Source: Liolophura sinensis (taxonomy: Eukaryota; Mollusca; Polyplacophora; Chitonida; Chitonidae). From it: 64,000 nt of DNA. Positions within the stretch are counted from its first letter, which is position 1, and each line of letters starts with the position of its first letter. Below, one piece after another: positions 5,645-48,334 of the stretch. The translations under genes were made by a program, and so were the position numbers. Location of the stretch: NCBI RefSeq assembly GCF_032854445.1, contig NC_088307.1:12834001-12898000 (forward strand). The letters are read 5' to 3'. The notes beneath the pieces are model-generated. The model made no database searches. It was not told where the DNA came from and was given only the letters and a program-made list of their open reading frames with translations.

Positions 5645-8424
<2,780 letters not shown>

Positions 8425-10893: not shown

Positions 10894-13800
10894 TCAAACG
10901 GTACCGCAAAGATAGATTCTATAAAAAAATGAAAATGGGAGTAACATGGAGACATGGTGCATGACATTAAATCATGTGATATCCTGATTTGTTTGTGTGT
11001 GGGGTGGGGGGGGGGGTTGTTTCATTTTTATTTTTTCTTGTCGTTTTGTGGGTTTTGTTAAAGGAGAAGAAAACTATGGGCTGAAAAGGGCACATTTTTT
11101 CTATCTGGTGGTGCCTGCTGCATAATTTTGCGATTTTTCCTCGGAATACATGTAAAGTCTGAAAACGTCAACACTGTCATAAACGGCTAAGCTGGTGGTT
11201 TCTCCTCCTGGAAATTCTCCTCCTAACACAGAAAGACTTCAGGACTAGTTCTTAGGGATGTCGCCCACAGTGGATTTTGGCGCTAACTTTATTTATAATT
11301 TATCATCTTGAGATACATATTAGAATATTTTTATGGCATGTACCTGTGAGGAAATGCATATTCTTTTCAATGGTATTTGTTTGTAATTTAAGTTTTCTTC
11401 TCCTTTAAAGCATGCAGAGGCTAGTTATTCCCACCAGTCTCTTCACTTTATAAAAAGGAAGTACTCCATGTTTCAAATTACTTAACCCGTCCAGACACAG
11501 CATTTCTCTTTCAAGTCAGACAAATTTTCAGAAAAATTTGTTTACTTACTCGCACCACTCTCAGCAATTCTCTCCCCTATAAAACAAGGACACGGTGTTC
11601 ACTTACTCGCACCAAGTTGTCATTCAGGTAAGGAAAATGCTTAGCGTTAGATGGATTTTCTTATTCGCACCATACCCCGAAATCTTCTTTCCATGTAAGG
11701 CAAGTGCTCAGTCCGACTTACTTGCACCACGCTCTGGAGTTCAACTTTATGTAAGACAAGTACTCGGTGTTTACTTACTCGCACCACAAGTCTCCTTCAT
11801 GTAAGACAAGTGTTCGGTATCTATTTACTCACACCAGGCACCGTAATTATCACTTAAAGTATTAAGGTATTAAAGGCAAGTGTAATTCTCTTTCATGTAA
11901 GATAAGTATTTACCCGGTGATTACTCACTCGCTTCACAATTCTCCTCGATGTTTACTTACTTGCAACACGTCACGCATTTCTTCTTCACGTAAGGCAAGT
12001 ATATACTCGATGTTACTTACTCGCACCACGCCCCGCAGTTCTCTCTCACGTAAAGCAAGTATATCCTCGGTGTTTACTTACTCGCACCACGCCCCGCAGT
12101 TCTCTCACACGTAAAGCAAGTATATACTCGGTGTTTACTCCCTCGCCCCTCGCCCCACGCCCCGCAGTTCTCTCTCACGTAAAGCAAGTATATCCTCGGT
12201 GTTTACTTACTCGCAGAACGCCCCGCAGTTCTCCTTCATGTAAGGGAAGTACTCGGTCCCAGGTTTACAGTACGTGTCATAGTCCCAGGTGTTACAACAG
12301 CTGTCCTTGTCTGTCACACACACTGTGTCGTTAAACACACCTGGATAAAAAAAACGTGTACATTTACTCTCAAAAAATAATTTCTTTTCTTTCTGTTAAA
12401 TTAAACACAAAATATGTTGTTTGAGTGATGCTAGAGTGGATTTGGTTATTATGGCAGATTATTCCGCTAGATATGAACACCCTTTGTATTAATTCAACAT
12501 AAAGATTATATCAGACTAACGGGATCTTATGTATGACAAAGTATTATGTTATTATGGTATTATAACTCAAATAACTTTCTGTTAAAATTAACAGATTCAT
12601 CATTTTAGGGTAATGAGTAATTGGATAAGTATATATTTATTTATTTATTCATTTGATTTATGGATAAAAGAGGTACAAGGCGACATTAATTTAAGATTCA
12701 ACGCAGGTATTTAAGACCGCCATGTGGACGGTTAAATTTAAAATTGGACAAAGGATTTGATTAATTAATTTATTTATTTGATTGGTGTTTTACGCCGTAC
12801 TCAACAATATTTCACTTTTACGACGGCGGTCAGCATTATGGTGGGAGGAAACCGGGCACAGCCCGGGGGAAACACACGACCATCCGCAGGTTGCTGGCAG
12901 ACATTCTCACGTACAGCCGGAGAGGAAGACAGCATGAGCTGGACTTGAACTCACAACGACTGAATTGGTGAGAGGCTCCTGGGTAATTACGCTGCGCTAG
13001 CGCGCTAACCAACACAGCCACAGAAGCCCCCGAAGGATGTGAAGATGGACGAATAGATGGGATGGTGAACGGATTCACACAAAGATGGACGATAGGGTTG
13101 ACAAGTAAAAAATTGGAAAAATTCAAGTTCGTGTAGGTAGACGAATAGAACAAAGGAATAATAGTTCCATGTAAATTTATGACACTTGACTGCTCACAGA
13201 GTGGTTAGATCACTGGTATATTATATTTATATTTTATTATATTTTTTATATTATATATATTTTTATACAAAAACAAACACTATCACCTACCTTCAAAAAA
13301 AAAACCTATCTGTAAAATTTAAACGTCTGAGTGATGAACGAATGTACATGTGTGTTCTGTTATTGCAATAGAGTATACTGTCATTACAGCAGATTATTAA
13401 GTTAATTATTGCACACATATCCTGTTAACTAAACACAGAGATTGTATTAGAGAGGATATTATGTTGAATATGACACAGTAACATGTTACAATAACAATAC
13501 ATTCTAACATCACTCTGACAATAACTCTTAAATTTAACAGATTATCACCAAAATATTAAATTAATAAACACGACTTTAATCCTTAATAGACTGAGATGTA
13601 ATTAAGTTTATCTCCATTCTGAAAAGTAGACGAATATTTCTGAAATGACTTACGGCATTGAGCATCAACCGCGGGATCACACACTCCTGAAACAACAATA
13701 ATATAATCCAATCTTTAGAAATTATGCAAACAATGGTAGAATCAGAAACCGTGATAAACTGCATTATTTCCCCCTTATTACACATCAGCACAAAATAATA

Positions 13801-15259
13801 TCTATTTTGGTTACCTGTAGTGCACATCTCTGTGAAAATACGGCATTTTTTTTAAATTTAAATTTAAAAAAAATATTAAGTGTTAATTAAAGGTACACTA
13901 TAAATTTACTGCACTGGTTTCGTTCCCATATCGTAGCTGTATCAAGGTTGCAGTAAGAGGATAGCTGGTGCAAGGTACAACACGTACTTATTGTAAGAGT
14001 TTCCGTCACATGTTAAACTTCAGGTATACTCAACACTTACTGCACCTTTTTTTCTCACCCACATATGATATACCCCTGTTTGAGTCCATTGCTTTCTGGT
14101 TCACACATCGTAGCTGATCAAGTTTGCAGTAAAAACAAACCTCCTTTACCGGTGCATCATATGATATACGTTTTATGTGATATATTTCTGCGTCATGGTT
14201 GCAGTAGAAACACCATGTACTTACTGCACTGGTTGCATTCACATATCGAAACTGGATCTAGCTTGCAGTGATAACATAGCTGGTTCACGAGTACACCGTA
14301 TGCTTACTGCACTGGTTGCGTTCACATATCGAAGCTGGGTCAAGGTTGCAGTAAGAACACAGCTGGTTCACGAGTACACCGTATGCTTACCGCACTGGTT
14401 GCGTTCACTTACCGTAGCTGGGTCTGGAATGCAGTGGGAACATAGCCGGTTCACGAGTACACCGTATACTTACTGCATTGGTTGCGTTCACATATCGAAG
14501 CTGGGTCAAGGTTGCAGTAAGAACACAGCTGGTTCACGAGTACACCGTATGTTTACCGCACTGGTTGCGTGCACTTACCGTAGCTGGGTCTGGAATGCAG
14601 TGGGAACATAGCCGGTTCATGAGTACACCGTATACTTACTGCATTGGTTGCGTTCACATATGGTAGCTGGATCTAGGTTGCAGTAAGAGCAAGGTTCATC
14701 ACTGGCTAAGTACGGATGTTCGTCCTCAAAACCTCCTCTGTTAAGAAAACCAACATAATTCACCTTAAACACTGATTAGTCACAGTTTTTATTCATATAT
14801 TTTCTATAGTACTCCTGCATAAAAGCAACACACATGGCATTTTCACCGTCACAATTTTTGCAACATGGTCAACGTCGTACAATTCCATGACAATGCGAAG
14901 CTACGATTTAAATATTTTCAAGAACACTCACAATGAAATCTCAACTACGTAAGCACATGTAAATACACAGAAGAAATTATAACCAAAATAAACATGACCA
15001 TGGGGAGATTTTATTATCATAGCAAGTAAATCATCAAATTCTCGATGGTATAAATATTTCCAAAGTTAACCTCTTTCTGCCATAATATAGCTTGAGAGTA
15101 GCAGAAAAGTAGCAATCACTCATTCGTTTATCCATTCAGTCAATCTGCTCTTTAAATGTACTTGACTTTAGCATAACGTGTAAGAGTCAAGTCCAGTGTC
15201 AGGATATAGTGCGAGGGTATACATATACGTCATATACATAGGCGTCATATTTGACGTCA

Positions 15260-15357
<98 letters not shown>

Positions 15358-18300
15358 GTTGGAGTCATGTCTGGTGTCAGGATATTATGAGAGGGTGTAC
15401 GTAGGTGTCATGTCTGGTGCCAGGATACTGTGACGGGGTAATATTTATTTATTTGACTATTTGTTTGGTTTCAGCTGAACACCCTACTGAGAAGTCTGAC
15501 TAATGTAGGCCAACGATGGCGTCAGTTTTTTTAGGTGGAGAGAACAGGATTCGACTTCCTGGGCTAAATCAACCATCTTTGGCCTAGATTGCCTCATCAA
15601 ATTAATGGAAGACAAGCAGTCCTCAGTGAACGTCAAACTACGTAAATTGTCACACTTACACCTCCATGTAATTGCACACCCACATCCACGAGCTGAAGGC
15701 AATCTCATTGTCCGGCAAAAGTAGAACGCCGCAGAATTTCTTCCCACAACCCACGTAATTAGTATTGTACCAAATGATCTGTATGGAATAGAAAATCGTA
15801 TTACTTACTTATGTGAATAAGTTTTACGTCACGCATAACAATATTTTATTTATGCAGCGGGTATCAGAGTTGTGAATGATAAACTAATTTAAACAAAAAA
15901 TACAAAGACAAATATTAATAGCGGCAGTTTCCAACGCGCTGTTGGTGTTAGATTTATGTTCTCCATAACATTTCTTCCTATTTAGATTTTTTTTTAAATT
16001 ATGGTTTTTTAAATTATGGCCAGCATTATGGTGGGAGGAAATCGGGCAGAGCCCGGAGGAAACCCACGGCCGTACGTGGGAAGGTCTGCTGGCAACCTGC
16101 GGATGGTCGTGGGTTTCCTCCGGGAGAGGAAGCCAGCATGAGCGGGTCTTGAACTCACAGCGACCGCGTTGGTGAGAGGCTTCTGGGTCACTACGCTGCG
16201 CTAGCGCGCTAACCGACTGAGCCACATAGCCCCCCCCCCTCCCCCCCAACTTTTAGAACACGATTGGATCCGTCTGCACACGTGTTTGTAACCATCCTAT
16301 GGATTAAGTTTCTTCCTAACACATACCTGTGTAAAACGTCTTCTCTCGTTTGATTCTCTATACACGTGATTCTCCCCACCCTATAAAATCTACTTTCTCC
16401 CCTGATATTCAATTTGTTTTCTTTTTAGAACACGTTTGGTTCCGTCTGCTTGAGTTCCGTCCTGTAGATTTAGTTTCTCCCTGACACTTTATTACCTGTT
16501 TGATTCTCAGTTCAGATTACTACTGGTCCTTCCCGCACGTATTTATGACATTCTTATCTATCCATTTTCTCCTTAACACTTAATTATCAATTTCAGCTTA
16601 TATCACATTTGATTCTCCGCACACGACCTTGTGAGCTTCCTATATGTACAGACTTAGTTTCCCCCTGATATTTACCTGTTTCTACTCAGAATGACGTTTG
16701 ATTCCCCGCGATTTCTGGATTTCTCATTGAAACAGTTTCTACTTAGAACTAAAAGGCAAATCACCTTTGTTACCTCCCAAACTCAGCTTGTGTTTAGAAC
16801 ATGCTTGATGACGCGCACACGCTTTCATTCGTCTCCTACGAGTAATAAACTCACTGGCTTGTAGTTAGACCATGCTGGATGTTCCGCGCACGTGCTCGTC
16901 TCGCACGTGTAGTAAGCTCACCTGCCTGTAGTAAGAACAATTTCCGCACACGTCTTCGTCGTTCTCGTGTAGTTAGCTGACCTGGTTGTGGTGAGAACAT
17001 GTTTGATTCTCCGTACACGCGTTCGTCTCACACGTGTACTAAACTCACCTGCTTGTAGTTATAGCATGCTTGATTCCCCGCACACGTTGTCGTTTGGTTC
17101 TCCACACACATCTTTGTCTCGTACGTGTAGTAAACCTAACTGCTTATTAGTCGAACACGTTTCATTCTTCGAATAATGTGTTGGCCACGTACGTGTAATA
17201 AACTCACCTGCTTGTAGTTTGAACAGGTTTTATTCTCAGCACACGTGTTCGTCTCATACGTGTAGGAATTCTTTTCGTCGTTAAATATAGCTAGGAGCGG
17301 CTCCGAAGGTAGTGCAGTTGAGTCGGATCGGAAGATGATTTGACCAACATCGGTGCCGTTGTCAGGACTGAAATATACACATTTTACAACTCACTTGAGT
17401 AAACCTATCTCTCATAAAATACAATTTTAGGAAAAAATAAGGCCGTTTCCATGCTAACCATGCAAAACATTCCATGCCATGCGTTACCACCTTGTTTATC
17501 TAAATTTCGTATAAAAGTCCAGTTATGAATCATGAGTCTCTTTGCAGTTCAGTAATGAGTGACACCGTATTGTGCAACAGACGCACAGCGCCGTGCAGTT
17601 AGTTGAGAGACTGTGTTGCCGATGTAACCTATAACAACGTGTAAACCATTGTGCAGTACTGTGCGGGGATATTTTTGCTTAGTACCATACGGTAATCGTA
17701 TAGTAGGTCAACAGTCAGAATGTGTAGAAACTTATCTCTGCATGTTTCCAAAACCTGAAGACCTCCAGCAGGTTACTTTCATCATCGTTCACGGTGTCGC
17801 TATTGCTATAAGCCACAGAGAATTACGACACATTAATGGATGGGGGCAACCGGGGTGCCCTGAATAAATCAGCACCCTTATCATGCACCTAATAAATACT
17901 ACCGACTTAAAGCGACAATCGGGGCCTCCGTGGCTCATTTGGTTAGCGCGCTAGTGCTGCGTAATGACCCAGGAGCCTCTCACCAATGCGGTAGCTGTGA
18001 GTTCGTCCAGCTCATGTCGGCTTCCTTTCAGGCCGTATCTTGGAAGGTCTCCCAGTACCCTGCGGGTGGTCGTGGGTTTCCCCCGGCCTCTGCCAGATTT
18101 CCTCCCACCATAATACTGGCCGCCGTCTTATAAGTGAAATATTGTTGAGTACGGCGTAAAACACCAATCAAATAGATAAATAAAGCGACAGTCAAACCAG
18201 CCAGAGTTGGATTCGAACACCCGATCTCATTGGTCAGGGGCCAATCGTGTCTTTCGAGAGAATATAGCTTTATCCGAAAGGGCCAGTGAATGTTATCATT

Positions 18301-18974
18301 AGATGCATCATTGCTTCAAGGATGGTATCACTAATAACAAAAATATGTTGACCTAGGCCTATTGCAAATTATCTGTTCTTTAATAATATGATGGTTTTAT
18401 TCACGTTGGTTATCTGTGTTTTATCCTGTTCTGTAGCATTAACTTACAAGTTCAGGTTGGCGTAGTCAAATTTGCACGTGTCCGCCGTCTTCTGAGCAAG
18501 ATTAGCCAAGTCTTCACCATATTGCTGTTAAGAGAGTTAGGTAAAGTGTGAGATATATTTTTAGATAGATTAACAAATGAGACCATCGGAATCTTAACAA
18601 AAAGTAAATAGAAAATCTCAATCATTAACCGAGAATATTAACTGCATCGGAAAAAACCATATAATCAGTGGCCAAATACACAAACGAATTTAATTGTACC
18701 GGAGAAATTTCACCTCTCTCTCCAAAACACACAAAAGAAGTTCTTTGGTTCCTCTGACAAATAGAGAAATGGAGTTCATGTCCTATAATGTTTATTCTGC
18801 CAAAATAAAACATTGTCGATGGGGTAATCTGTATAGAAACGTAAAGAATCTAGGAATACTTTTAGTGTCCATGACATGGCCACTCAGCTGGATTTGATAC
18901 ACAGATATACGTTTCATTATACAAGTTACTGACTGAATAATTTATTCATCAACTGATGCAGATTCCTGTATTTT

Positions 18975-19005
<31 letters not shown>

Positions 19006-21738: not shown

Positions 21739-22135
21739 GCTGGTGATAATTAACACAAACCTGTTGTGAGACCGAATGATGAACTTCGGCAGATATACCA
21801 GATTATCGGCAGACAATGCCAGATAACACGTGGGCAGGATCTTTTTTTTAAGAGCAAAACGTGTCACCGACGTGGCTACACGACACCTTTGTTATTTCAG
21901 GCCTTCTTGCAGGTTTATTCCGCTAACACGTACGACCCTGATGTGCTAAAAGCTGGTATGATTAACTTCGTTTATCGCCGCGTGCGGTTACTGAATATGG
22001 GGGGGGGGAGTAGGTCTACAAGAACATATGTATTATGTTATATATGTATGTATATTATGCATTTTCAAAAACATAAACACTTGTAAGCAGTTTAAACTCT
22101 GGGTGGGGCATGAATGGAAAACTTAACTGTAGAGA

Positions 22136-22380
22136 GGGCCTCCGTGGCTCAGTTGGTTAGCACGTATGACCCCAGGAGCCTCTCACCAATGCGGTCGCTG
22201 TGAGTTCAAGTCCAGCTCATGCTGGCTTCCTTTCCGGCCGTACGTGGGAAGGTCTGCTGGCAACCTGCGGATGGTCATGGACTTTGCCCGGTTTCCACCC
22301 GCCATAATGCTGGCCGCCGTCGTATAAGTGAAATATTCTTGTGTACGGCGTAAAACATCAAATCAAATAAATAAATATAG
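22136..22380 (+). repeat. SINE-A, nearly full length
   Basis: Starts GGGCCTCCGTGGCTCAGTTG. A short head deletion removes the GCGCTAGCGCAGCGTA block. The central domain and tail are intact. It lies upstream of the CAP first coding exon. Confidence 0.85.
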
Positions 22381-22954
22381 CTGTAGAGAAACTTTCTTAA
22401 TACCAGAATGTTTTATGCTTTATAATACCAACATGCTTTATAACATGTTTTACTAGAATCACTCGCGCGAAAAGCAAATATAAAAGGTTTTACTTAGCAG
22501 TGTATCTTATGAAAATTTCGATTTGAACTGGGAAGAGTATACCTATTCAATCCAATAAATAAATAAATAAATAAGTAAATAAATAAATAGGAATCAAGAT
22601 TAACTGCTATTCTCTCAATAAGGACGGCAGATTTGCAAAAAGCTTTTGGTTATATGCGTCGTAGCAGACATTCGTATGCAAGCATTCATCCGACAAGGCC
22701 AGCTAAATAATTTCTAATTGATGGTGAGAAAGATACAGCTTTCCATTGCTCTTCATGACCAGAGTATTCAAATTTCCAGTGGTCTTGATGGCGAGATGGA
22801 TTTAAATTCCCAGTAGCCTTCATGGTCAGTAGGGTTTGTATTTCGATAACGCAAAACAAATTACAAAATCCCACTCATCACGGATGTCAGAAGGTTCAAT
22901 CTTAAATTGACCAAACTGGTTACACGAGATGAAAATCTTATTGATCAAGGTGGT

Positions 22955-23710
22955 CACAAGGATTCAGATTTCCACTGCATGATGTGGATGGTCAGGAGGG
23001 ATTTAGATTTCCACTGCATGATGTGGATGGTCAGGAGGGATTTAGATTTCCACTGCATGATGTGGATGGTCAGGGGGGATTCAGATTTCCACTGCATGAT
23101 GTGGATGGTCAGGAAGGATTCAGATTTCCATTGCATGATGTGGATGGTCAGGAAGGATTCGGATTTCCACCGCATGATGTGGATGGTCAGGAGGGATTTA
23201 GATTTCCACTGCATGATGTGGATGGTCAAGAGGGATTCAGATTTCCACTGCATGATGTGGATGGTCAGAGGGATCCAGATTCCCACTGCATGATGTGGAT
23301 AGTCAGGAAGGATTCAGATTTCCACTGCATGATGTGGATGGTCAGGAGGGATTCGGATTTCCACTGCATGATGTGGATGGTCAGGAGGGATTCGGATTTC
23401 CACTGCATGGTGTGGATGGTCAGAAGGATTCAGATTTCCACTGCATGATGTGGATGGTCAGGAGGGATTCAGATTTCCACTGCATGATGTGGATGGTCAG
23501 GAGGGATTCAGATTTCCACTGCATGATGTGGATGGTCAGGAGGGATTCAGATTTCCACTGCATGATGTGGATGGTCAGGAGGGATTCAGATTTCCATTGC
23601 ATGATGTGGATGGTCAGGAGGGATTCAGATTTCCACTGCATGATGTGGATGGTCAGGAGGGATTCAGATTTCCATTGCATGATGTGAGTGGTCAGAAGGA
23701 TTCAGATTGC
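22955..23710. repeat. 39-bp minisatellite
   Basis: About 19 copies of a 39-bp unit (GGATTCAGATTTCCACTGCA, then TGATGTGGATGGTCAGGAG). Degraded copies extend to about 22,740 on the left and about 23,800 on the right. Because 39 is a multiple of 3, long open frames run on both strands. They have no start context or splice signals and are not treated as genes. Confidence 0.95.
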
Positions 23711-23857
23711 ATCTGCGTATACTCTTAATGGTTAGAAGGCCTCCAGTTTAGGGTGACATCGTTTTTGATGGCCAGACGGATTCATATTACAATCATATTA
23801 AACTGGTCCTATCATTTCCCATGGCCAGGCGGTGATGGGGCAGTCGGCATGGATCAT

Positions 23858-24115
23858 ACACTAAAAAATTTAATCTGTTAATTTTAAGAGAATGTCTGTT
23901 ATCTGAATGATGCTAGAATGTAGTTTGTTAGTGCGCCAGATTATTCTGTTTAACATAACACACATATTCTATTAATTTAACATACCCATTGTATTAGACG
24001 AACAGGATATTGTGTTGAATATGTCACAAAAATGTGTTATGATAACAGAGTACATTCTAGCATCACTCAGACAACTTTTTGTTAATTTTAACAGATAAAC
24101 TTTTTGAGTGTAGCC
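23858..24115. mobile_element. MITE-like element, family M1, copy 3
   Basis: Long imperfect terminal inverted repeats: TTTAATCTGTTAATTTTAAG with TGATGCTAGAATGT on the left, and the reverse complement of GTTAATTTTAACAGATAAAC with ACATTCTAGCATCACTCAGA on the right. This is the best preserved copy of the family. Confidence 0.7.
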
Positions 24116-24189
24116 ATTGTGGCAAAAACGTATTTATAGACAAGTCAGCCTATATATCCAGTCCATTGTGTTTAACACAACATACAATC

Positions 24190-24325
24190 AGGGGCTGGTT
24201 TCATAAAGCGCACTTAGTAAATCATGGCCTATCATGACAACCTATGGGCTGCAGAGATATAACGTGCGCTTACGGCTAAGGATTACTTAACACTAAGTAC
24301 ACCTCGTGAAACCGGTCACAGGTTC
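24190..24325. mobile_element. Small inverted-repeat element (M2)
   Basis: The left end CTGGTTTCATAAAGCGCACT is mirrored by the right end GTACACCTCGTGAAACCGGT. CTTAGT/ACTAAG motifs are also symmetric, as in small foldback transposons. There is no coding capacity. Confidence 0.55.
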
Positions 24326-25134
24326 ACGATTAATGAGGGAGGAAACTTGACAGATACATGTACTTGAACAAACCATATCACCACAAAACCAAGTTTTTGA
24401 TAGATTTAAAAGACATAGGCTAGGCCCTATATATAAATGGCGCAATTGGATAACGGCCCCTGAATGCCATTTGTGGACTCGCACATAGGCCCGGGCTGTA
24501 GCATTCTTCCCCTGCCTGGACAGGTGTACCGCAAACGAAACGTGTTTTAGCCACTTTTACAAACTTGAGCGGCTATCTAGGATAAACTATAATAATCACG
24601 AATATTATGTTGTCTTTTTTAAGATCTTCATAGAAATAATAACAATGTTTGGAAAACCGAAGAAACACAGATCAATTGCATTGATTTTCGAAGTTTGTAA
24701 AATCTGCTTTGACACGTGTGTATCTACATGCCACACCCACGCCATATGAGTGACAATTAAGGGTAGCCTAAATGGGTAGCTATATGTTGCTGATGACAAC
24801 AATTTATTAAATTATTTATTTATATCGTTTTATTTCATTTTATTTTATTTTCCACTGTTGTTTAAAGTCCTGGTTAACAATTTTTCATCGACAGCCTATG
24901 AAATAGATCACGTTTATATGTGGAGAAAAGGGGCGTGTCCGAATGAAACCGTCGACCTTCACCATGGTAACAAGACAAATCTCCTAACTTAATAAAGTCG
25001 CTGCCGAACTAACAGAAACTTCATTCAGGTCATCTACCTCACTGGTCAGCCAGGTTAATAGCTTATACCAGTCATACAGTATCTATACATGTCGCCAAGG
25101 CTACACAATGTATACAGTATCGCTACACAAGTTG

Positions 25135-31500: not shown

Positions 31501-34500
31501 GTGTCTTCGGCATGATACTTCAGTAATGGCAATGCGTTGGAGGCATAGCCTCACCCTGCCACAAGAAGTCACATTATTTGTACACGTAACTAATGACCCC
31601 TCTTCGTCAAATGACTGAAAAATTGCTAGGGATGACGTTAAACACTTAGCATACATACATACATACAGAAATATGTTTACCTTTATTTCTTTTTTTCTTT
31701 ACAAATAAAATGCTGTGAAATGCTTGAAATCTATGGCAGTTGTATTGACCAGTTCTCTGAATCTGGGTGATGGTGATGAGTTTTTGTGGTGCATGTATGT
31801 ACAACTATAGTGTGTACCTCTGCACATAAAGAGCTAATACAACAATATGGTAGGGTATATGTGGGAATGTTTGTTACATCATTGATACCTAAAATTAAAT
31901 GTCAAACTACTGTTACAAGGAAACAACTGCTTCAAATATGTCTGATGTAGATTTAAGCTACATGTACATTGATAAAAGTGTGAGCTAAATTGATAAAAGT
32001 ATGAGAGAAAGTGATAAAAGTGTGAGCGCAATTAATAAAAGTGTGAGCCCAGTTGATAGAAGTGTGAGCGAAATTGATGAAAGTGTGACACCAGCTAAAG
32101 TTTTCATTGCTTATTACTTTGCAGATGTCTTTTGCTGATGGACAGTTTAGTGCGGTGTTAGATAAAGGGACACTGGATGCTGTGATGACAGACGACAGTG
32201 AGGAAGTCTCGTCGAAAGTTGATCAGATGTTTAAAGAAATCGGGAGGGTTTTACGACAAGGGGGACGATATGTCTGCGTGTCACTTCTACAAGATCATAT
32301 TCTTAGAAAAGTACTCAAATATTTTCCAGAAATGTAAGTGGTACTCATTGAATTCTAATTACATGGTATGTACCCCAAATCGTCAACCTTTGCTTATATG
32401 AAAGAGCAACTTTCAGTGCAATTTATGCACATTTCTAATTTGATTTTGGAAACAAAATTTTATCAGTCTACACAGAATAATCCCTTCAGAATATGGTTGA
32501 ATAAACACTTTACAAACATGTGAAATGGTTGAAGAATTACAGTATATACATATCTTGGGCTCATTCCAAGCGGCCATTTTTAACTTAGTCCTCAGCATTT
32601 AAAACCCCTGTCAGCATTTAAAACTTCAGTCAGCATTTAAAACGCCTTTCAGCATTTAAAACCCCTGTCAGCATTTAAAATTTCAGTCAGCATTTAAAAC
32701 CTCAGTGTAAAAAGTACTTCATTGGTTGAAAAGGTTGAAGGATCACTGTCTATCAGGTGCAGAATTTGTACAAAATGAAAAATTACCAATGTGGTATGTC
32801 CCCTGAGCTTTTTTTTTTGGCTCCAATTATGAACATGATATGTGTACCTAATAGACAGATCTGTACAATCAGTGGAGGAGCCTTTCCAAGGTTAGGTTTT
32901 AAATAGCCAGTAATTAAAGTTTGCAGGGTCAGCAGATTTATTGTCATAAGTTTATCATTTAAGTAAACACATATCTGTTTCAGAGGCTGGCCAGTGAGAA
33001 TACATCAGATTTCTGAACAGACTAATCCTGCTGAAGAAAAAGAATTCCACATGCCAGTGTTTTTATTAGTGTTCACAAAGTTTAGGAAAATACCATCCAG
33101 TAGACAAGTAAGTACAAGTTTGTGCTGTGACTAGTTTTATTACGTTTTGGAAAATACCATGCAGTAGAGAAGTGAGTACAAGTTTGTGTTGTGACTAGTT
33201 TTATTACGTTTTGAAAAATACCATCCAGTAGACAAGTATGTACAAGTTTGTGTTGTGACTAGTTTTATTACCTTTTGAAAAATACCATCCAGTAGACAAG
33301 TAAGTACAAGTTTGTGTTGTGACTAGTTTTATTACCTTTTGAAAAATACCATCCAGTAGACAAGTAAGTACAAGTTTGTGTTGTGACTAGTTTTATTACC
33401 TTTTGGAAAATACTGTCCAGTAGACAAGTGTAAGATGATAACTTGTGATGTTGATTGAAATTGACATAACACAGATTTTCTAACAAATACTACAAGAAAA
33501 GATACATGTATCTCCATGCCTCAAGGATTCATTCATTCATTCACGAAGTAAGGTGAGGTATTGTGAGTGTGGGGGAAATGTGGTGTTGGTGCCCAGGTAA
33601 GCTGTTTTGTTTGGGTCATTTGAATAAGTTTTTTTGTTTGGGTCTGCTAGTCTCACAGTCTTCACATTATCTTTATGAAACTTGGTGGGAATGATGAACA
33701 GGATTTGGGGATTACTCAGTTTGAATCATGTGGGATATTTGCATTGTTAGCTCACTGTTATGAAATAAGCTTTTTCATGTTCATGAATTTTCTTGGTCTT
33801 GATAAACATGCTTTCAAGATGTTGACATTTTACTTGATTGTTCTGTTTTGGTTAAAACTACCATGTTTTGGACTTGCTGTGCTTACATTCACTTCTCAGA
33901 TGTGTATGTAGCCCCAGAGGAAGGAAACCATTACAGGTGAACTGTCGGGTTTCTCATAACCCTTGTTATGGACTTGAATTGAAATGTAATACATGGAGCT
34001 TCACCGGTATGATGTACATGAAGTTTGAGTTTGGGAGTATTTTTGTTCATGTTTAACAAAATCGTGATCTTTTTCATACATGTACCCTCTGTGGACTTTG
34101 ACATGTAGCCATTACATGTATGCTGATTGCTACATGTCTAGTGAATGTATTTTTGCAGTAATACACATACATCTCCCAAAATGCATGGTATTTGCGTAAT
34201 TACATGTAGTGCCATTATTATCTGTGTTGTCACATGTAATGATGTTTTTCTCTTCGCAGATATTAGAAGTATCAAATGATGATGATAAAATCCAGAGGTT
34301 TGACGATGTGGAGAAGCTATCAGCCTGGGTCAAGGAATCTCAATATTATGCTGTCATTAAACATCAACTGTCACAAAAGTAAGTCCTCCTTTATTCACAA
34401 AAGTAAGTCTTCCTTTATTCACAAAAGTAAGTCCTCCTTTATTCACAAAAGTAAGTCCTCCTTTATTCACAAAAGCAAGTTCTCCTTTATTCATAAGTTA

Positions 34501-37500
34501 AGTTCTCCTTTATTCACAAAAGTAAATCCTCCTTTATTCACAAAAGTAAGTTCTCCTTTATTCACAAAAGTAAATCCTCCTTTATTCACAAAAGTAAGTT
34601 CTCCTTTATTCACAAAAGCAAGTTCTCCTTTATTCATAAGGTAAATCCTCCTTTATTCACAAAAGTAAATCCTCCTTTATTCACAAAAGTAAGTCCTCCT
34701 TTATTCACAAAAGCAAGTTCTCCTTTATTCATAAGTTAAGTTCTCCTTTATTCACAAAAGTAAATCCTCCTTTATTCACAAAAGTAAGTTCTCCTTTATT
34801 CACAAAAGCAAGTTCTCCTTTATTCATAAGGTAAGTCCTCCTTTATTCACAAAAGTAAATCCTCCTTTATTCACAAAAGCAAGTTATCCTTTATTCACAA
34901 AGTAAGTCCTCCTTTATTCATGAAGTAAGTCCTCATTTAATCACATTAGCAAGCCCTCCTTTATTCACAAAAGTAAGTCCTTCTTTATTCACAAAAGTAA
35001 TTCCTTCCTTATTCACAAAAGTAAGTCCTCCTTTAATCACAAAACTAAATCATCCTTTAATCACAGAAGTTTAGCATATTGTGTGAATCTTTAGTTCTGG
35101 CCCATGTGGTATTAAAACAACATTAACAGCTCCTCAAATTTCACAGTTCCACACCGGTTTTCTTTTTTCTTTTTAAATGTAAATCTACGTGTATTGTATA
35201 CAAACCCTGTCCCGATTGCACCTTAGAAACCCAGTGGGACATAATGGGACATCTGGTGTAAGTATTCATCATGTTGAAATACAGGTAACTAGTCAGGGAA
35301 TTTAATACTGAGATTGTCGTTTTGAAAGTAAATGGATCTCAGTGCTGAAACCTGATGACATAATCAGAAGATGTTCAGTGGCCTTTCATTGTACGCTGTG
35401 CATCTGAAAGTATGAACATGTATTCTGTTTGGGGGCCTCCGTGGCTCAGTCGGTTTGCGCGCTAGCACAGCGTAATGACCCAGGAGTCTTTCACCAATGC
35501 GGTCGATGCGAGTTCAAGTCCAGCTCATGCTGGCTTCCTCTCCGGCCGTACGTGGGAAGGTCTGACAGCAACCTGCAGATGGTCGTGGGTTTCCCCCGGG
35601 CTCTGCCCGGTTTCCTCCCACCATAATGCTGGCCGCCGTCGTCTAAGTGAAATATTCTTGAGTACGGCGTAAAACACCAATCAAATAAATAAAATAAATG
35701 TATTCTGTTTGTTTTTTTAATGTGTCGGTCTAGTGCTTTGTCTCCGATTATACATCTTTTCAGGGGTACAAAATCTTGAAATGAGTATAGAAAAGCTTAT
35801 CAAACATGCATGTACTAGGCTATGGTTATGCCTTGACCTTGGTAAGGAAATTTCTAAAGCTCTTATTTTTTGTTGCACCTGAATAATGATAAGCTGTTGA
35901 CGGTGCTTGTGGGTATTTTGTACAGTCTCACATTTCACTTTTCTGCCTCCTTCTGTACATGTATATGCATATGGTGTACAACTCATGTCACAGATGTTAG
36001 TTCATCACTAACTTGCCAAAGGTTGGTGGTTTACCCCAGCTTTCCTGTACCCATGAAATTGACCACAACTGTATAAGCGAAAAATTCTTTTTTTGAAATA
36101 AATAACTCTGATTAACATTTCACATTCTCTTCAAGTCTTGGAGAACTTACCTTTACATGTGGTTTGATGAAGTTTGACAAAAATGCATTTATTAAAACTT
36201 CTGTATAAAATTTTCTCTTTACCCAGATCCATATCAGATGAGCAGATTACATTAGAACTGTTTGGGCTGAATTCTGACTCTCCCCGGTACACGCTCTATG
36301 TGGTTGACAGCCCAACCAAATGTTCCAATAAATTTGCAATATTTATTGTTCCAGAGGGAAGGTGAGTACTTGTAAGGGAGATAACTGCTGTGTGTTTTGA
36401 TTTTTGGGTTTCTTGTTGGTGTCCTGATGCATCATGATAAATGTTTTCTGCTTCTTGTTCAAGTTATCCAGAAGTGTTGGTTGTTGAAGGCAATCAGCTC
36501 TGAAAGCCCAAATTGGCATTTCAGGAGTCCTCACAAGTTCATGCTGGTTCTATGAGACACTGTGGAGACGTTTGGTAGACTGAGTTCACGTCTCAAATGG
36601 TTGGGCTGTTGGTTCAGGGGTGTTGCCGTTCACATGATCCACAGTAAATCATGTCTTTTAGCCATGTTAATTTGCTTGAGCCCCGCCCTTATCTTGCCTG
36701 AACCTGCTTGGTCTCTCGCTTGAATCTTGGAAATGCGGGTTCAGCCTAATAGGTTGTAGGTTCAAATCCAGATTCGGTCAGTACAGCAAGGTAAATGGGG
36801 ATGTTGTACCTGGGATTAAAAATTGTGGTGGTTTTCCCGTGGACTGATTTCCTATACCCGTACACCTGGTCACTGTCCTATACAAAAACAGATCAAAAAT
36901 GTAAATGAATCAATTTAGACTATTTCATGTGGTAGGAATGCAGGTTCTTTTGTCACCATGATGATGTGCTTTTATCCGTTCGACTTCGTAAATGCAAAGA
37001 AAACTTTAACATGAACTATATTTCAGGGAAAGACCCATAAACACTGTCCATAAAAATAGTTTGACATATTTTTTTAGATTTTTTTTCTATCTCCCAAAAT
37101 GCATTGAAAATTTGTATTCTGTGATGGCCTTTCCTTCCCATATTGAGGACCAGTGATGTCACATCAGAGTCTTAACTGCCATGTACTGCTGGATTTTATC
37201 ATTCCAAGTGCATGTACAGGTAAAAATGTAAATGCAAATCGCCGAATGACCCTTGGAACTATTTGACAATGAAAACATAGATATGAGGTAGTGGATACTC
37301 TTTGGGGCACAACAGACCACTGTAGAAAACTGATGTTGTAGAACCATTTACTTGATAGAAAAATTTCTAAAATCATAAATCAAATTATTTTTTCAGTATA
37401 GTGTTTGATGGTCTTTCATGGGGTGTATTCTTCATTTTTATGGGTTTTTTCTTACTTTAATGCCGTGTTTGAAGCAAAAAAAAAAAAACATCTTGAGTTA

Positions 37501-40500
37501 TTAAACAGAAATTAGCAATGATCGACCAGATTTTATTTCATTTTGGGTAAAAATCTCAAGAAGTATCACTTTTTTTTGCTGCATGTGTCATGCACCAGCC
37601 GCAAGCAGAAGTTGCAGAATTTCCAAGATAAATCCTCTCGTCAAATATACAAATGAATAAATGGAATGAATTTTATACCCATCTATAATTGCTTGCTGTT
37701 GTTCTTGAACCTGTATCAGGGAAACGGAATGGCTGTTCTCCAGTACTACGGGAAGGAGTCAGTTGTGTCGCAGTGCAGGGTTTGAAAGACTAGTCATTGT
37801 CACGCTCCACAGAATGCAGAAATATGAAAGTCCTAGAGAAGATTAAAGCTGAGTTATCGACAAAAGTCATGGAGCTGTCACCCCCGTCATTACCCAGGGG
37901 GATACAGGTGGGTGGACTTTGGTCATGACCTGAAAAATGGTTTTGAAATTTCTTACCTTTTTCTCAGTTTTAGTGTACTATTTCTTATCTGAAAAAAAAC
38001 AAAAAAAAAAAAAACTTACACACTCAAGTTTTGTGTATTTAAATTAATGTGATGGACTTTGGCCAAGAATCGGAATCAAAACACAGTTTGAAATTTAAGA
38101 TTTATGAAACGAAATTATTCTTGGACGTCTCCCATTTTAAGAAATCTCTCATGTAAAAAAAAAATGTAAATAATTGTCAATTTATAATCAAACACTCCAA
38201 TGGATCTGGTTATCTCTTAAATAAGTCAATCTGATCAAAAAATACAATTCTGCAAATACACATATGTAATATTTGCCAGAGCAGTACTTCAATATTTTTA
38301 ATCCATGCTCATCAATGAATCCAGTTAAATGATCCTTCACTCAAGGATTAATCCTGCATTTCAGTGAATCCGTTCAGCCGCTCCTTAAACCATCCAATTG
38401 AGGGTAGCCATATTACTCCCCAACAAATGACTCTAGGCCCTACATGATTCAGCTTTCAGTTTTATTTAAATCATTTTCAAGGATGAATCCATATTAGTCT
38501 ATATCACAACAAAGACTGAAAATCATTGTTGTGACTGTTGTGACAACTTTCTCGTATCATGTCTTGTGTATGGCATTTAAGTGATGCAGCACCGAAATGT
38601 GTTGCCATCATTGTTTTTTTTTTTAAGTGCAGGCGTAGCCTCATGTCATACCCTAAGCTTTTAGGCATCCAATAACAGGGAAAGAGATGTTGAACAAAAT
38701 GTTAGGATGGTATCTTAAAAAGTACTGCTTGTATTGAGCTCTGGTTTTGCACACATGTAGAGCACAGTAACACAAGCGGGGATGTTCTATCACTGATTTG
38801 CTGTGTGCATATTAAGTACTGTAAATTACAAAATTCAGGACTTAGTGTTTTGTGTATCAGGATTAATGTAATAAAGCTATTGAAAGAAATATTCTTGATT
38901 TATTTATTTATTTGATCGGTGTTTTATGCCGTACTCAAGAATATTTCACTTATACAACGGCAACCAGCATTATAGTGGGTGGAAACCGGGCAGAGCCCAG
39001 GGGAAACCCACAACCATCCACAGGTTGCTGGCGGACCTTCCCACGTATGATCGGAGAGGAAGCCAGCATGAGCTGGACTTGAACTCACAGCGACCGCATT
39101 GGTGAGAGGCTACTGGGTCATCACGCTGTGCTAGCGCGCTAACCAACTGAGCCACGGGGGCCGCGAAATATTCTTCAGTACGGGGTAAAACACAAATCAG
39201 ATAAATAAATAAATAAATAAAGAGGCAAGCTGTTTGGTAGTCTTGCTACCAAATCTTTGTTTTTATAATCATGTTCTTCAGTCAATATTCTCGCAAGTCA
39301 GGAAATAAAAATCAAACTGCTGTTATTTCATCAATCTTTTTTCGTTTTGCAGGTTCCATTCTTGTCTATGGGAGAAGACATAGGTCTGCGGACAATTCAG
39401 CATCAAGGTCAAAGTCCACACAGCGGCGAGTTCGTCGTGGAGGATGTGGAAGGAGACGCAGGAAGTCTCTTCAGACGCCTCATATTCCTTAGCAACCAAA
39501 ATGCCATCCAATCAGAAGTTAGGCTTTTGAAAGGTGTGACTGAGAATTTTTTTCTTCCGCAAACATCGTACAATCGTTAACAGTATTAGTAAAGAAAAGA
39601 GAAAATCTTAGCCAGCTTTCTCATATAAAATTTGAGAATTTATTGCACTAGAAAAGAGCTATTGTTTAATGTTCAAGATATATGTCAGATATTTATTTGA
39701 TATATATTTCCTATATTTTTAAAGTCAGACTTTTTTTATTTTGTGCTTTATGGGAAAGCCGACACTAAAAAAAAAATCCACGTCTGGAATAAAAATAAAA
39801 TTATTCTGTTTGTTTTCATGAGTTTCATTTTCAATGTTTCCAACCAAATAAACAACTCTTAAGCGAACAAATTGCTGGGACAGTCCACATTTCTCATAAA
39901 TTCGATCATCAACCAAAATGGAATAAAAATAAAACTTAAAACTATTCTGTTTGTTTTCATGAGTTTCGTTTTCAATGTTTCCAACCAAATAAACAACTCT
40001 TAAGCGAACAAATTGCTGGGACAGTCCACATTTCTCATAAATTCGATCATCAACCAAAATGGAATAAAAATAAAACTTAAAACTATTCTGTTTGTTTTCA
40101 TGAGTTTCATTTTCAATGTTTCCAACCAAATAAACAACTCTTAAGCGAACAAATTGCTGGGACAGTCCACATTTCTCATAAATTCGATCATCAACCAAAT
40201 GGAATAAAAATAAAACTTAAAACTATTCTGTTTGTTTTCATGAGTTTCATTTTCAATGTTTCCAACCAAATAAACAACTCTTAAGCGAACAAATTGCTGG
40301 GACAGTCCACATTTCTCATAAATTCGATCATCAACCAAAATGGAATAAAAATAAAACTTAAAACTATTCTGTTTGTTTTCATGAGTTTCATTTTCAATGT
40401 TTCCAACCAAATAAACAACTCTTAAGCAAACAAATTGCTGGGACAGTCCACATTTCTCATAAATTCGATCATCAACCAAAATGGAATAAAAATAAAACTT

Positions 40501-43500
40501 AAAACTATTCTGTTTGTTTTCATGAGTTTCATTTTCAATGTTTCCAACCAAATAAACAACTCTTAAGCGAACAAATTGCTGGGACAGTCCCCATTTCTCA
40601 TAAATTCGATCATCTACCAAAATGGAACAAAAATAAAATTGGAAGCTATTTTGTCCGTTTTTATGATTTTCCAGTTTTTCAAGGTTTTTGATCTAGTAAA
40701 TATCTCTTTTAGAGGAAAAATTGCTGGGACAGTCCACATTTTTGTAAGATTTAGTCACCAGTTTTATTTTTTATATACCCTGCTCAATCATTGAGAAAAG
40801 ATTCATTGTGCCCAGGAAAACAAAAATATGAATTGGGACCAAAGTGTGAGAATTCTGATAGTGTCAGATACACTTAGCCATTTTTTTGTCTCTCTGATTA
40901 TACATTCACCCAAAAAAAATAAAAAGGAAATCGTCCATTGAATTTTGTCTAAGCTTCCAGTGTGTGATTTATGTTTTTCAGATACAGTGAAGAAAAAAGG
41001 TGGCAAGAAGACAAATCTAGTGAGCATTGACAGTAGCTACCTAGCCTGTCAGAATCACACAGCCATGGTGGCTGGCTTGGCATTGGTGGAGGAGATACAA
41101 AATTTCTTAGGTGAGTTGACCGATTGATTGAGAGTGTTTACAGTGTACCTGGGGTCTGTTTTTTTTTTTCAAAACTTCGTCAAAGTTAACATTGTCTGTT
41201 GGCCGGCTAAGGGCCATAAAAAAAATTTTACCAGATCATTTCACAGAAATAGAACTGTTTAAATCCTAGCCAGTTTACTACAGCCAGCTGTGTTACTGCT
41301 CTCTAGCAATCTGATTAGTGGAATCTATGATGGTACTATAAATCTTCAACTGTTTCAACAACAAAAGCACTTTTTTGCAGTAGAACTTTTGAATACATTT
41401 ATTATGGAAATTAAAATAAAAACGATTTGTTTGTGTCATTAAAGATACAAGCTTCATAAATCTTTACAAATCATTTCTCTACACTCCATAGTTCTCTCCG
41501 AATGTTTCAAAATATTGTTTGCAGAGGTGGTTAAAGAGCTTGAAATTCTTATTAATTGCATAATTGTAGCTGTTAATTCATCAAACATCATGGTGGCAGG
41601 TCTTTTTTTTTTCACAAACTTGATTCTTTAAATAAATTAAATTTTCACTCTTAATTACCCTAATTCTTCAACCATTTCTTTAGAGCAATTTCAGTGCAGT
41701 TTATGCACATTTTTAATTTGATTTTGGAGACAAAACTACATTGGATGGATTGACCAGTTTCAGGGCTTCCCAAAAATTATGATTTTATTAGTCAACACAG
41801 AAAAATGCTTTATAGTATGCTTGAATAAACACCTTGCAAACATGTGAAATGGTTGAAGTATTACGGTACATTTTTTCATTTTTTCTCCAGAAAAAATGTA
41901 CAGAAACTTAGTGTTTTAGCAGATTATTTTTAAGCCATCTGCAAGGAGCTTCCCTTTGCCTTGTGACAGCACTTTATCGTCACTGCCACAGTACAATATG
42001 GACAGCCACACTATAATTTGTACAGACACAGTATAATATGTACAGACACATTATAATATGTACAGCCACATTATATTATGTACAGCTATAGTATAATATG
42101 GACAGCCACAGTATAATATGGACAGCCACAGAATAGTATGTACAGCCACAGTATATTATGGACAGCCACAGTATAATATGGACAGCCACAGTATAATATG
42201 GACAGCCACAGTATAATATGTACAGCCACAGTATATTATGGACAGCCACAGTATAATATGGACAGCCACAGTATAATATGGACAGCCAGAGTATAATATG
42301 TACAGACACAGTATAATATGTACAGGCACCAAATGACCTAAAAATTGTTAAGTACAGCATAAAACCCCAAGCATTCATCCTTCTGCTTGTACTGCGTAGT
42401 TTCTCTGCATTTTTGAAAATATTTAAAGAGCTGACAAGAAAATCTTTATTCCTTGAATTTTTGTCTACCTTTTTAGAAGTGGGCTTCTCAGCTTTAGTGT
42501 TGGGTCTGGGTGGTGGTGGGCTCCCGAAGTTTATACACGACCACTTCACTAAGGTAATTCTAACTATTTATTGTTTTAGTTAGTTATTTATTGATTAATC
42601 GATTGATGGTATATATTGATTGTTAATCGATTGATGCTATATATTGATTGATTTAGTTTAGCTATTTATTTAGTTATTTACTGATTTATTGCATTGATTG
42701 ATATGATGTGTTTACCACCATTTTTCACTCGTGTGAGGGGGTCAGGTTTAAGAGTGGAGGAAACTGGAGTGCTCTGAGTAAACCATCATCCCTCATCAGG
42801 TACCTGACAAACCACCTGACTTAAAGCTGCAGTCGAACAAGCCAGAGCTGGATTTGAACATGCGACCTCATTGGTGAAGGGCTAGATGATCACAGTGAGG
42901 CAGCAAGACCCCTTGTAGTCAGTCAGTGAACATGCCTCTGTATAGGATGTCTCGGCTGCAAGACGAATAAAGTGCACATGTTCTACACATTTTGATCCTC
43001 TACATCAAACATATTGTTTAATGTGACAATACTTCAAAATAAATCTGATACTGGTATGGGTTTTTTTTGTGCCATTCTCAGGGGTCGTAGATTACTTGTT
43101 CTTTGTAAAGTTTCTTTACCCATTCAAACATGACAGCGCTATGAGTTCAAATCCAGCTCATGCCGGCGTCTTCCCGGGTTATAGCTGGAAAGGTCTGCCA
43201 GGAACCTGTGGATGGTCTTTGGGTTTTCGCGGGCTCTGTCTGGTTTCCTCCCACCATAATGCTGACCGCTGTTGTATAAGTGAAGTATTCTTGAGTATGG
43301 CATAAAACTCAAATCAAATAAATAAACATCACAACCATTGTGTAGGTGAGTAAAGTCCCAATCAAACTGGCAATCTCCCTAAATTCAGACTGGTTATTGT
43401 TTTAGGTATCTCTGACAGCTGTAGAAATTGACCCGGTTATGCTTACGGTGGCAACCGACTGGTTTGGATTCCAAGAAAGCGATCGCCTCAAGGTTGCCAT

Positions 43501-46500
43501 CGGTGATGCAGAAGATGTGATCAAGCAGATGGCAGATGGAGGTGAGAGATGGAATACATTTGATTGATGTGTATTGCATTTGAAGGGATCTGATGTCGTT
43601 TGAAAGCACTGTTCTCACACTTTAGCCAAGTTAGGACTAACACATGGAGATCACACTTTAACTGAGTTAGAACTAACACATGGAGATCAGTAATCTTAGT
43701 ACATGTAGGTGCATTATAGTCACTTTAAGTGTACATGTACCTGTATGTACAGGGGCCTTCATGGCTCAGTTGGTTAGCCCGCTAGCACAGCGTAATGACC
43801 CCAGAGTTTCTCACAAGTGCAGCCGCTGTGAGTTCAAGTCCAGGTCATGTTGGCTTCCTCTCCAGCCGTAAGTGGGAAGGTCTGTCATTAACCTGCGGAT
43901 GGTTGCAGGTTTCCCCCGGGCTTTGTCGGGTTTCTTCCCACCATAATGATGGCCGCCGTCGTATAAGTGAAATATTCTTGAGTATGGCGTAAAACACCAA
44001 TGAAATGAATAAATAAATAACCTGTATGTACATGAAAGGGGAGCTGTGAAAGACAGGTATCAGTACACTGTATCTGAGGTGGGTTGTCATGTCTCGTGTA
44101 TGGCATTTAAGTGATGCAGCACTGAAATGTATGCTTGTGTTTAAACTCAGCTGGTCAGTCAAAGGGTGCTGGACAGTAGGTGTCAATACACAGTAACTCG
44201 CCTAGATTGGCATGTCTGATGTTTTGACATGGCATTTGAGTGATGCAGTGCTTAGGGTACATGTATGTTGGTGTGGAGGAATTGAGCTGGTACATTTACT
44301 CCTTACTTGTGTTGTTGTCAGGTAAAGCAGAGTTGAACAGCAAGGGTCAAAGGTTATGATTCTTCATCTGTGCCTCCCCAGATTACTTCGTTTAGCAATT
44401 ACTCGTTTACATTGTAAATCTGACAGTCAGTCTGGTAGAATGATTGAGTGGGACATATTACTTAATTAAGTGATGCTAAACGTTGTATTGTAGCGTTAAC
44501 AGTGCAACATCATGGTAAATAGAGCATATATGTTATACAGGGTGATGAAACTGCAGCATAGGACATGTTCAGTATCAGACAACAAAATATACTCAACGCT
44601 GTTCGTGATGCTGATGGTAGACGCACTCAGTACATGAGAGCTGTGAACTATGATTACCAACCAGTGTGTTTTCACACTGCAGTAGCTCCTGGACTTTGTC
44701 CTAAAAATGTGAAAATCTGGTGGAAATTGAAGCCACAATTGATAATGAATACTTACCCTGCTTGTCGAGTGAACACATTATTTAATACAATATATATTAT
44801 ATTGATTTATATTTGCATTTATATTTTTGTTGAGTGTAGATATGATGTGGATGTCTTTCAGCACCGCAGCACCACCTGTTGTGATGAAAATCTGCTGGTA
44901 CCTGATTTATTTATTCATTTATTTGATTGGTGTTTTACGCCGTACTCAAGAATATTTCACTTATATGACGACGGCCAGCATTATGGTGGGAGGAAACCGG
45001 GCAGAGCCCGGGGTTAAACCCACGACCATCCGCAGGCTGCTGGCGGACCCAGCAGCCTCCCACTTACGACCGGAGAGGAAGCCAGCATGAGCTGGACTTG
45101 AACTCACAGCGACTGCATTGGTGTGAGACCCCTGGGTTATTACACTGTGCTAGCGCGCTAACCAACTGAGCCACAGAGGCCCCCGGTACCTCATTTACAA
45201 CCCATGTATATCTATATGGACTCCAAGGGTGACACATTCTGTCATTTCCTCAGTAGACCACCTTGCTGGCCTACTGGTTAGAGCATCCTCCTCAAAGTCA
45301 AGAGACCCGGGATCAAACCCAAGGTTTTAAAATTGTTACTTGCAGCTGCCTCACTTGGCACTCAGAACTGAAAGGTTAGAACAAGGAAACAGGACTGTGT
45401 GGCCCAGTGTCAGTGTAATGTGACTGGGTAGGGTGTCATGTGGTGCACTGCATGGACTTGCCCCACCACAAGAAGACGCAGTATATGTACACACACCTAA
45501 TGACTCCTCGTCGTCATATGACTGAAAAATTAAGGGTTAAACCCCAAGCACTCATTCGTTTATTCACTGTCTTAGTATAAGCATTACTGCACCTACATGC
45601 ATTTGTTTACATTATAGGAGAGCAACATCTGGTGGTGATGCTGGATATTGACAGCAAGGACAAGACAATGGGAATGAGTAGTCCCCCTTTGGTGTTTGTT
45701 CAGCCAGAGTTTCTGAAGACAATAAAGCAGCTGCTTCATCCTGAAGGTGAGTACATGCATCCTTAAGGTGAGTACATGCATGCGGAAGGTGAGTACATGC
45801 ATGCTGAAGGTGAGTACATGCATGCTGAAGGTGAGTACATGCGTCCTGAAGGTGAGTACATGCATCCTGAAGGTGAGTACATGCATGCTGAACTGTTTGT
45901 TCCTTCTGCAGGTGTTACATTCAAATCTTACCTGTTACATGTGTGTTTGGCCTGTTGCGTCCCATTGTTTTTCCTTCCACAGGTGTTACATTCAAATCTT
46001 ACCTGTTACAGGTGTGCTTGGCCCCGTTGCCTCCCAGTGTTTTTCCCTCTGCAGGTGTTACATTGAGATCTTACCTGTTACAAGTGTGCTTGGCCTGTTG
46101 CGTCCCAGTGCTTTTCCCTCTGCAGGTGTTACATTCAAATATTACCTGTTACAGGTGTGTTTGGCCTGTTGCCTCCCAGTGTTTTTCCTTCTGCAGGTGT
46201 TACATTCAAATCTTACCTGTTACAGGTGTTTTTGTGCTGAATCTGGCTTGCAGAGACGAGTCCTTAAAGACTCAGGTGATAAGTGACATCCAGGCTGTGT
46301 TTCCCAAGCTGTACTGTGTTAGCGTCTCAGGTGAGGTTAACGACATTCTCTACTGCCTTCCCTGTGAACGCCCAGACCTGCCAGACCTCGCTGATGAGAC
46401 TTTACCAACGGAACTGTCCAACGATCTTAGGACTCTCAATAAACTCATCAACAAAGCAGCAATTAATGATGAACTGCCAGATCTTTTGGAAGCCATGGAA

Positions 46501-48260: not shown

Positions 48261-48334
48261 ATGCAGATTTCTTGTACTTTTAGTACATATAAAGTCCTTT
48301 AATTTGAAAATCACAGTATTTTCATTTTGTACAA

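Follow-up and report, generated by a model that had tools for sequence, protein, structure and literature searches.

Tandem arrays copied from exon-intron junctions in METTL13 and a neighbouring CAP gene of the chiton Liolophura sinensis

Why should minisatellites in the introns of two neighbouring genes be made of the very exon-intron junctions that they adjoin? This question is raised by a stretch of 64,000 nucleotides from the chiton Liolophura sinensis (contig C13, positions 12834001-12898000; hereafter the window), in which a METTL13 gene on the forward strand and a CAP/ShK gene on the reverse strand carry seven such arrays. According to the accessible part of the genome paper, the assembly derives from 14x HiFi coverage (PMC11068029); first assigned to Liolophura japonica, it was later reassigned by the authors to Liolophura sinensis (PMC12441733). 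An earlier note on this DNA had described the arrays as tandem copies of the adjoining junction, and had raised a systematic bias, intron gain and the tuning of splicing by decoy donors as what might lie behind them. We found the structures to be as described, and we consider it probable that they are mirage-type minisatellites, comparable to those of amphioxus genes, whose copies drift nearly neutrally in introns while splicing would use the site at the exon edge.

Junction copies in METTL13 and the CAP gene

Spliced alignment to the human protein resolves METTL13 into 13 exons; the model is homology-based. Pfam methyltransferase domains match the N-terminal half of the predicted product, and the C-terminal half matches PDB 5wcj_A, 'Methyltransferase-like protein 13' (E 1.4e-62). 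On the opposite strand, the model of the CAP/ShK gene covers exons 4-8, with the exon numbers 4, 6 and 8 taken from the earlier note. PF00188 is found over exons 4 and 5 together (E 1.9e-4) and PF01549 in exon 8 (E 1.4e-4). METTL13 exon 7 (37720-37907) shifts frame by one base near 37836, away from any array, which would reflect either a sequence error, given the 14x HiFi coverage, or a damaged allele.

When these gene models were combined with Tandem Repeats Finder (TRF) output and unit alignments, all seven arrays fell on the junctions that had been named for them, namely the donors of METTL13 exons 4, 5 and 12 and of CAP exons 4, 6 and 8, and the acceptor of METTL13 exon 13 (Table 1). In a donor array, each unit pairs the exon's terminal 8 to 50 bases with the start of the intron, and the acceptor array mirrors this arrangement. 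The exons are left intact, and the proposal that every unit joins exon to intron sequence and that the genuine site lies at the edge of its array holds for all seven. METTL13 intron 12 (45747-46225, 479 bp) is filled by a donor array and an acceptor array, separated by a single base. TRF edges are too narrow for some arrays; at CAP exon 4, for example, TRF reports 16828-17087, and the copies really span the junction at 17207/17208 and reach to about 16772.

Table 1. Exons and junction arrays of METTL13 and the CAP/ShK gene in the window. A slash in a sequence marks the exon-intron boundary; further copies are those beyond the genuine one and above noise identity, and GT counts refer to them.
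Feature	Position	Strand	Details
METTL13 exon 4	32984..33107	+	donor 33107/33108, AGACAA/GTAAGT; spliced alignment
METTL13 exon 4 donor array	33087..33481	+	64-bp unit = 21 bp exon + 43 bp intron; 5 further copies, GT in 5/5; TRF 33087-33429; pairing test z 34
METTL13 exon 5	34260..34378	+	donor 34378/34379, CAAAA/GTAAGT; spliced alignment
METTL13 exon 5 donor array	34371..35070	+	24-bp unit = 8-9 bp exon + ~15 bp intron; TRF; 28 further copies, GT kept in 19/28
METTL13 exon 12	45618..45746	+	donor 45746/45747, CTGAAG/GTGAGT; spliced alignment
METTL13 exon 12 donor array	45737..45892	+	21-bp unit CATCCTGAAG/GTGAGTACATG, 10 bp exon; 6 further copies, GT in 6/6
METTL13 exon 13 acceptor array	45894..46234	+	71-bp unit, 9 bp exon; 4 further copies
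METTL13 exon 13, to stop codon	46226..46518	+	acceptor TTACAG/GTGTTT
CAP exon 4	17208..17367	-	donor AAGCAG/GTGAGT
CAP exon 4 donor array	16772..17257	-	~67-bp unit, about 50 bp exon; 6 further copies, GT kept in 4/6
CAP exon 5	15660..15778	-	
CAP exon 6	14640..14737	-	donor AATGCA/GTAAGT
CAP exon 6 donor array	13871..14688	-	83-bp unit, 49 bp exon; TRF 14220-14688; 7 further copies, GT kept in 6/7
CAP exon 7 (33 bp)	13654..13686	-	splice sites; frame agrees with exons 6 and 8
CAP exon 8 (ShK domain)	12211..12340	-	donor TGCGA/GTAAGT
CAP exon 8 donor array	11761..12251	-	61-bp unit, 41 bp exon; TRF 11943-12251; 5 further copies, GT kept in 4/5; weaker copies beyond

That these structures are dispersed repeats or artefacts of assembly seems to us barely credible, even with HiFi coverage of only 14x. 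Three arrays were searched against the genome (here and below 609,464,459 bases in 632 contigs, one haplotype) and proved locus-specific: the METTL13 exon 5 array has only three partial matches, of 70-71% identity, on contig C12, and the stretch 45737-46234, which holds the METTL13 exon 12 and 13 arrays, has no second place in the genome-wide search. The units are also diverged, with no identical stutters, and like structure is present in unrelated genes.

The earlier note had further held that the other minisatellites of the window lack splice sites. This holds only roughly. None of the 13 remaining arrays, out of 20 in the window, has a donor score above 6.6, the highest among them, while junction arrays score 9.5-12.2; the latter range, however, applies to four of the six donor arrays only, and the consensus units of CAP exons 6 and 8 score 4.9 and 7.2. 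Beyond the METTL13 stop codon, at a distance of about 1.8 kb, an 18-bp array of the window (48331-48521) has GTAAGT in most units and is open as (VVSEGQ)n, and no exon edge was identified at it. The acceptor of actin exon 2 (7420) is preceded, at a distance of 9 bases, by a 19-bp pyrimidine-rich array (7338-7410), whose units copy the pyrimidine tract without exon sequence.

Placement of arrays relative to junctions

Junction copying was scored in 42 introns of five genes (METTL13 12, CAP 5, actin 1, ARP3 10 and KPNB1 14). Each junction, taken as 20 exon and 30 intron bases, was scored both against the intron it belongs to and against every other intron, and the highest score of any mismatched pair, 32 for donors and 37 for acceptors, served as the cut-off. 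Both kinds of boundary are affected: eight of 42 donors scored higher against their own intron than all 1722 mismatched pairs, KPNB1 intron 14 passing narrowly at 33, and two of 41 acceptors scored higher than all 1640. Each of the seven window arrays has a score between junction and own intron above every mismatched pair. With exon bases alone (40), six of 42 donors ranked first, where about one is expected, and two of 41 acceptors did so, against about one expected. Exon edges reached a score of at least 27 in 4/70 tests against the right neighbouring intron and in 0/70 against a wrong one, and exon middles did so in 0/18. The P values that follow come from small samples, with cut-offs drawn from the same data, and concern five genes in one assembly.

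Two of the five genes were chosen without regard to the feature. The stretches taken outside the window comprise 200 kb of C1, 50 kb of C4, 10 kb of C12 and 5 kb of C600, and conserved genes were recognised only in the C4 block (C4:15,000,001-15,050,000). We take one of these genes to be ARP3, from a human protein that aligns over ARP3's whole length, and the other is presumably KPNB1, from a human protein that aligns at KPNB1 residues 263-874. Their 24 introns hold three more junction arrays. ARP3 intron 7 has a donor array in which the exon end is copied and the GT is lost, and KPNB1 intron 12 a degenerate acceptor array. KPNB1 intron 14 (36207-38065 of the block) has a donor array with a unit of about 53 bp and 30 copies above noise, of which none keeps GT; AT stands in its place in all 34 rows shown, as if amplification had proceeded only from a founder unit with a dead donor. 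Arrays at three of 48 junctions compare with about 0.03 expected from mismatched pairs (P 4e-6). ARP3 intron 8 (22446-22816 of the block) contains a 27-bp array that starts 13 bases past the donor and copies the intron start with no clear exon sequence; it is possibly an eroded junction array.

One alternative is chance: where minisatellites are dense, some will land on junctions, and only those that spare the exon will survive, so that selection alone already places the genuine site at the edge. Minisatellites are indeed dense, with 49 merged arrays in 200 kb of C1 (C1:10000001-10200000). We set the observations against a null in which duplications fall anywhere and only exon-damaging ones are lost. 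Over all 20 arrays, 1.41 are expected to cross a junction and nine do (P 1e-6). For the window, the 15 arrays in modelled introns give 0.85 expected and seven observed (P 3e-6, a post hoc value, the window having been picked for the feature). The C4 block taken alone gives three of eight arrays against 0.53 expected at a TRF score of at least 50 (P 0.008), and two of five against 0.50 at the stricter score of at least 100 (P 0.07). These figures make chance an unlikely explanation. Junction arrays are common in the sampled chiton genes, where the proportion of intronic arrays found at junctions exceeds random expectation.

Word counts over the whole genome agree with this result. Three AGGTRAGT donor words at a spacing of 13-43 bases occur in 1140 matches, and five controls built from the same letters in 575, 431, 416, 505 and 132, so that the donor word is 2.0 to 8.6 times as frequent; at a spacing of 44-74 bases the counts are 2599 for donor words and 1389 for the single control. 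These are counts of matches, not of loci, and do not imply a position at junctions. Among the matches listed for C1:1-46.4 Mb, 18 distinct donor-word loci compare with 6 and 10 for two controls. The systematic bias suspected in the earlier note thus stands up in three respects, in that it exceeds random placement, recurs in genes chosen blind to the feature, and is matched by genome-wide word counts.

A scan of unit consensus sequences for donor sites gave a different picture. In the window, 5/20 arrays reach a donor score of 9.5, or 4/20 if the acceptor array, scored on the wrong strand, is set aside (Fisher 0.0007 for 5/20, the cut-off of 9.5 having been set after the scores were seen). Arrays beating their own shuffles at p 0.05 number 4/20 inside the window and 1/58 outside. 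The scan is weak, as 49 of the 58 outside arrays come from the 200 kb block of C1, none of them with a donor score of at least 9.5; because that block has few coding-like segments, it says little about junctions. TRF edges and consensus sequences also overlook copies that have degenerated, as in the two donor arrays found in C4.

Decoy donors and intron gain

Do the repeated donors serve a function? A human parallel exists in the IFI6 (6-16) gene, whose minisatellite was reportedly described by Turri, Cuin and Porter in 1995. Like the chiton arrays, this minisatellite has units that supply splice donors, and its downstream units are used as donors and give alternative transcripts, as far as the accessible part of the source goes (PMC4526556). 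By analogy, the chiton arrays might recruit U1 or, as decoys, tune splicing, and GT is kept in 44/57 copies in the window, some of them as strong as the genuine site. The sequence of the copies argues otherwise. Across the six donor arrays of the window, differences from the genuine unit amount to 43/395 in the donor core, 84/783 in the intron part and 198/1181 in the exon part; the decoy core thus diverges as much as the intron part (10.9% vs 10.7%) and is no better conserved. There is no sign that decoy donors in the window are either kept or purged by selection. Arrays also persist without working decoys, because KPNB1 intron 14 (GT in 0/30 copies) and ARP3 intron 7 (0/2 shown) keep no GT.

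Reading past the genuine donor in the six arrays that keep GT, an in-frame stop precedes the first decoy. Use of a decoy would therefore most likely be destructive, bringing in stop codons, unlike the downstream units of IFI6; the chiton decoys are putative donors. Other introns, read in that phase, have such a stop about as often (product 0.13). The suggestion that decoys tune splicing finds no support in these data, and we regard functional arrays as improbable. We instead read the arrays as apparently near-neutral by-products, given that divergence in the decoy donors keeps pace with that elsewhere in the unit and that they are gone from two arrays.

The sequence of events that we propose would begin with a short tandem duplication that reaches from the exon edge into the intron. 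Such a duplication may be tolerated like a purely intronic one, as the exon-proximal copy would preserve both the junction and the protein. Slippage or unequal exchange would then multiply the extra copies on the intron side, splicing would most likely keep to the site at the exon edge, and decoy sites would be kept or lost together with the rest of the unit.

Tandem duplication of an exon segment bearing AGGT has also been proposed as a source of new introns, and the arrays might accordingly be intermediates or relics of intron gain. The accessible parts of the sources put this forward for amphioxus globins (PMC3087553), and the model of Rogers (cited in PMC3087553) and work on novel intron positions in Drosophila (PMC2891723) likewise invoke tandem duplication at AG/GT. 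METTL13 intron 12 is almost wholly made of junction-derived repeats, as the model predicts for a new intron. Its donor and acceptor units, however, score only 16 against each other, and in general the two junctions of an intron, donor and acceptor, do not resemble each other. Among 41 introns a single one stands out, METTL13 intron 10, with a likeness score of 29 against a 99% point of 19 for mismatched pairs. The first ~30 bases of this intron (42554-43405) resemble its last 24, with scores of 28-29 and rank 1 in both the donor and the acceptor test. The match is off register, and for that reason it does not give the simple picture of gain by duplication. Unlike what the model of intron gain describes, then, the chiton introns lack homologous ends in register; the proposal made for this locus is left unsupported, and we consider it very unlikely.

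Amphioxus mirages and a possible hotspot

The earlier note knew of no description of such a bias. Comparable structures are in fact known as mirages in amphioxus, with the same proposal of intron gain, from the accessible parts of two papers (PMC3087553, PMC3902484). The genes concerned there are Adh3, TnC (troponin C), the globins BflGb6 and BflGb9, and PGBD5, and splicing was undisturbed in the cases tested. As in the chiton, mirages consist of tandem units across an exon-intron boundary, donor or acceptor, with the genuine boundary at the array, and their copies are diverged, some with intact splice signals. Mirage units range from 10-72 bp (Adh3) to 150-160 bp (globins) in the same excerpts.

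The two cases also differ. The chiton arrays occur in a mollusc, seven of them in two neighbouring genes and three in two others, and only in the chiton do a donor array and an acceptor array adjoin to make up an intron; the random-placement tests likewise belong to the chiton alone. Mirages are backed in those excerpts by reverse-transcription PCR and instability data, and the chiton arrays are known from sequence alone. The chiton arrays behave as a mirage does, in another phylum and outside cephalochordates. Among the matches listed from the open-licence literature, represented by excerpts, we found no report of junction arrays in chitons or other molluscs, and the accessible parts of two chiton genome papers (PMC11068029, PMC12005716) mention none. 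Reports on earthworm metallothionein, gastropod hemocyanin and C. elegans minisatellites, as far as their excerpts go, are unrelated to junction arrays. While the kind of structure is known, its lineage, its density and the test of bias appear to be new.

With ten junction arrays in 42 introns, three of them in the 24 introns chosen blind to the feature, a broader reading suggests itself. Throughout the genome, chiton junctions, and donors above all, may be hotspots of tandem duplication, with exon edges giving rise to a large share of the minisatellites in introns; the same process would have arisen or persisted in cephalochordates too, and would reflect a mutational property of exon-intron junctions that is general and has been overlooked. 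We offer this tentatively and would put it slightly short of an even prospect.

Several points weigh against these readings. Three of the five sampled genes (METTL13, CAP and actin) lie in a window that was chosen for the feature. Taken by itself, the excess of donors over acceptors (8/42 vs 2/41) falls short of significance (Fisher P 0.09), and donor words outnumber the strictest control by a factor of only about two. In the unit-consensus scan, 0/58 merged arrays outside the window reach 9.5 (best 9.4), which speaks against a genome-wide pattern. The placement test counted a TRF array if it started within 130 bases of a junction with shown copies, a rule that matters for CAP exon 4 and KPNB1 intron 12. 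That splicing is unchanged is presumed from DNA. Finally, a mutational hotspot may cause the bias, or arrays anchored to a conserved exon may survive better or be recognised more readily.

The chiton and the lancelet together hint that junctions are birthplaces of repeats in unrelated animals, and junction copies in introns are no amphioxus oddity; gene predictors may take such copies for exons. If the bias is genome-wide, it bears on the origin of minisatellites and on the rise and decay of decoy splice sites, and intron gain by duplication might have a constant supply of raw material. Chromosome-scale assemblies exist for several chiton species, so the bias can be counted.

Four observations concern other elements of the assembly. 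Contig C632 is the mitochondrial genome, whose gene order is molluscan. A tRNA-like match lies on the reverse strand of the window at 63184-63255 (Rfam, 31.1 bits). A dispersed repeat with recurring coding-like pieces occurs in the window, C1 and C4. The first 5 kb of C600, a contig of 16.9 kb, resemble a tandem satellite with units of about 550 bp, judging from regularly spaced open frames alone.

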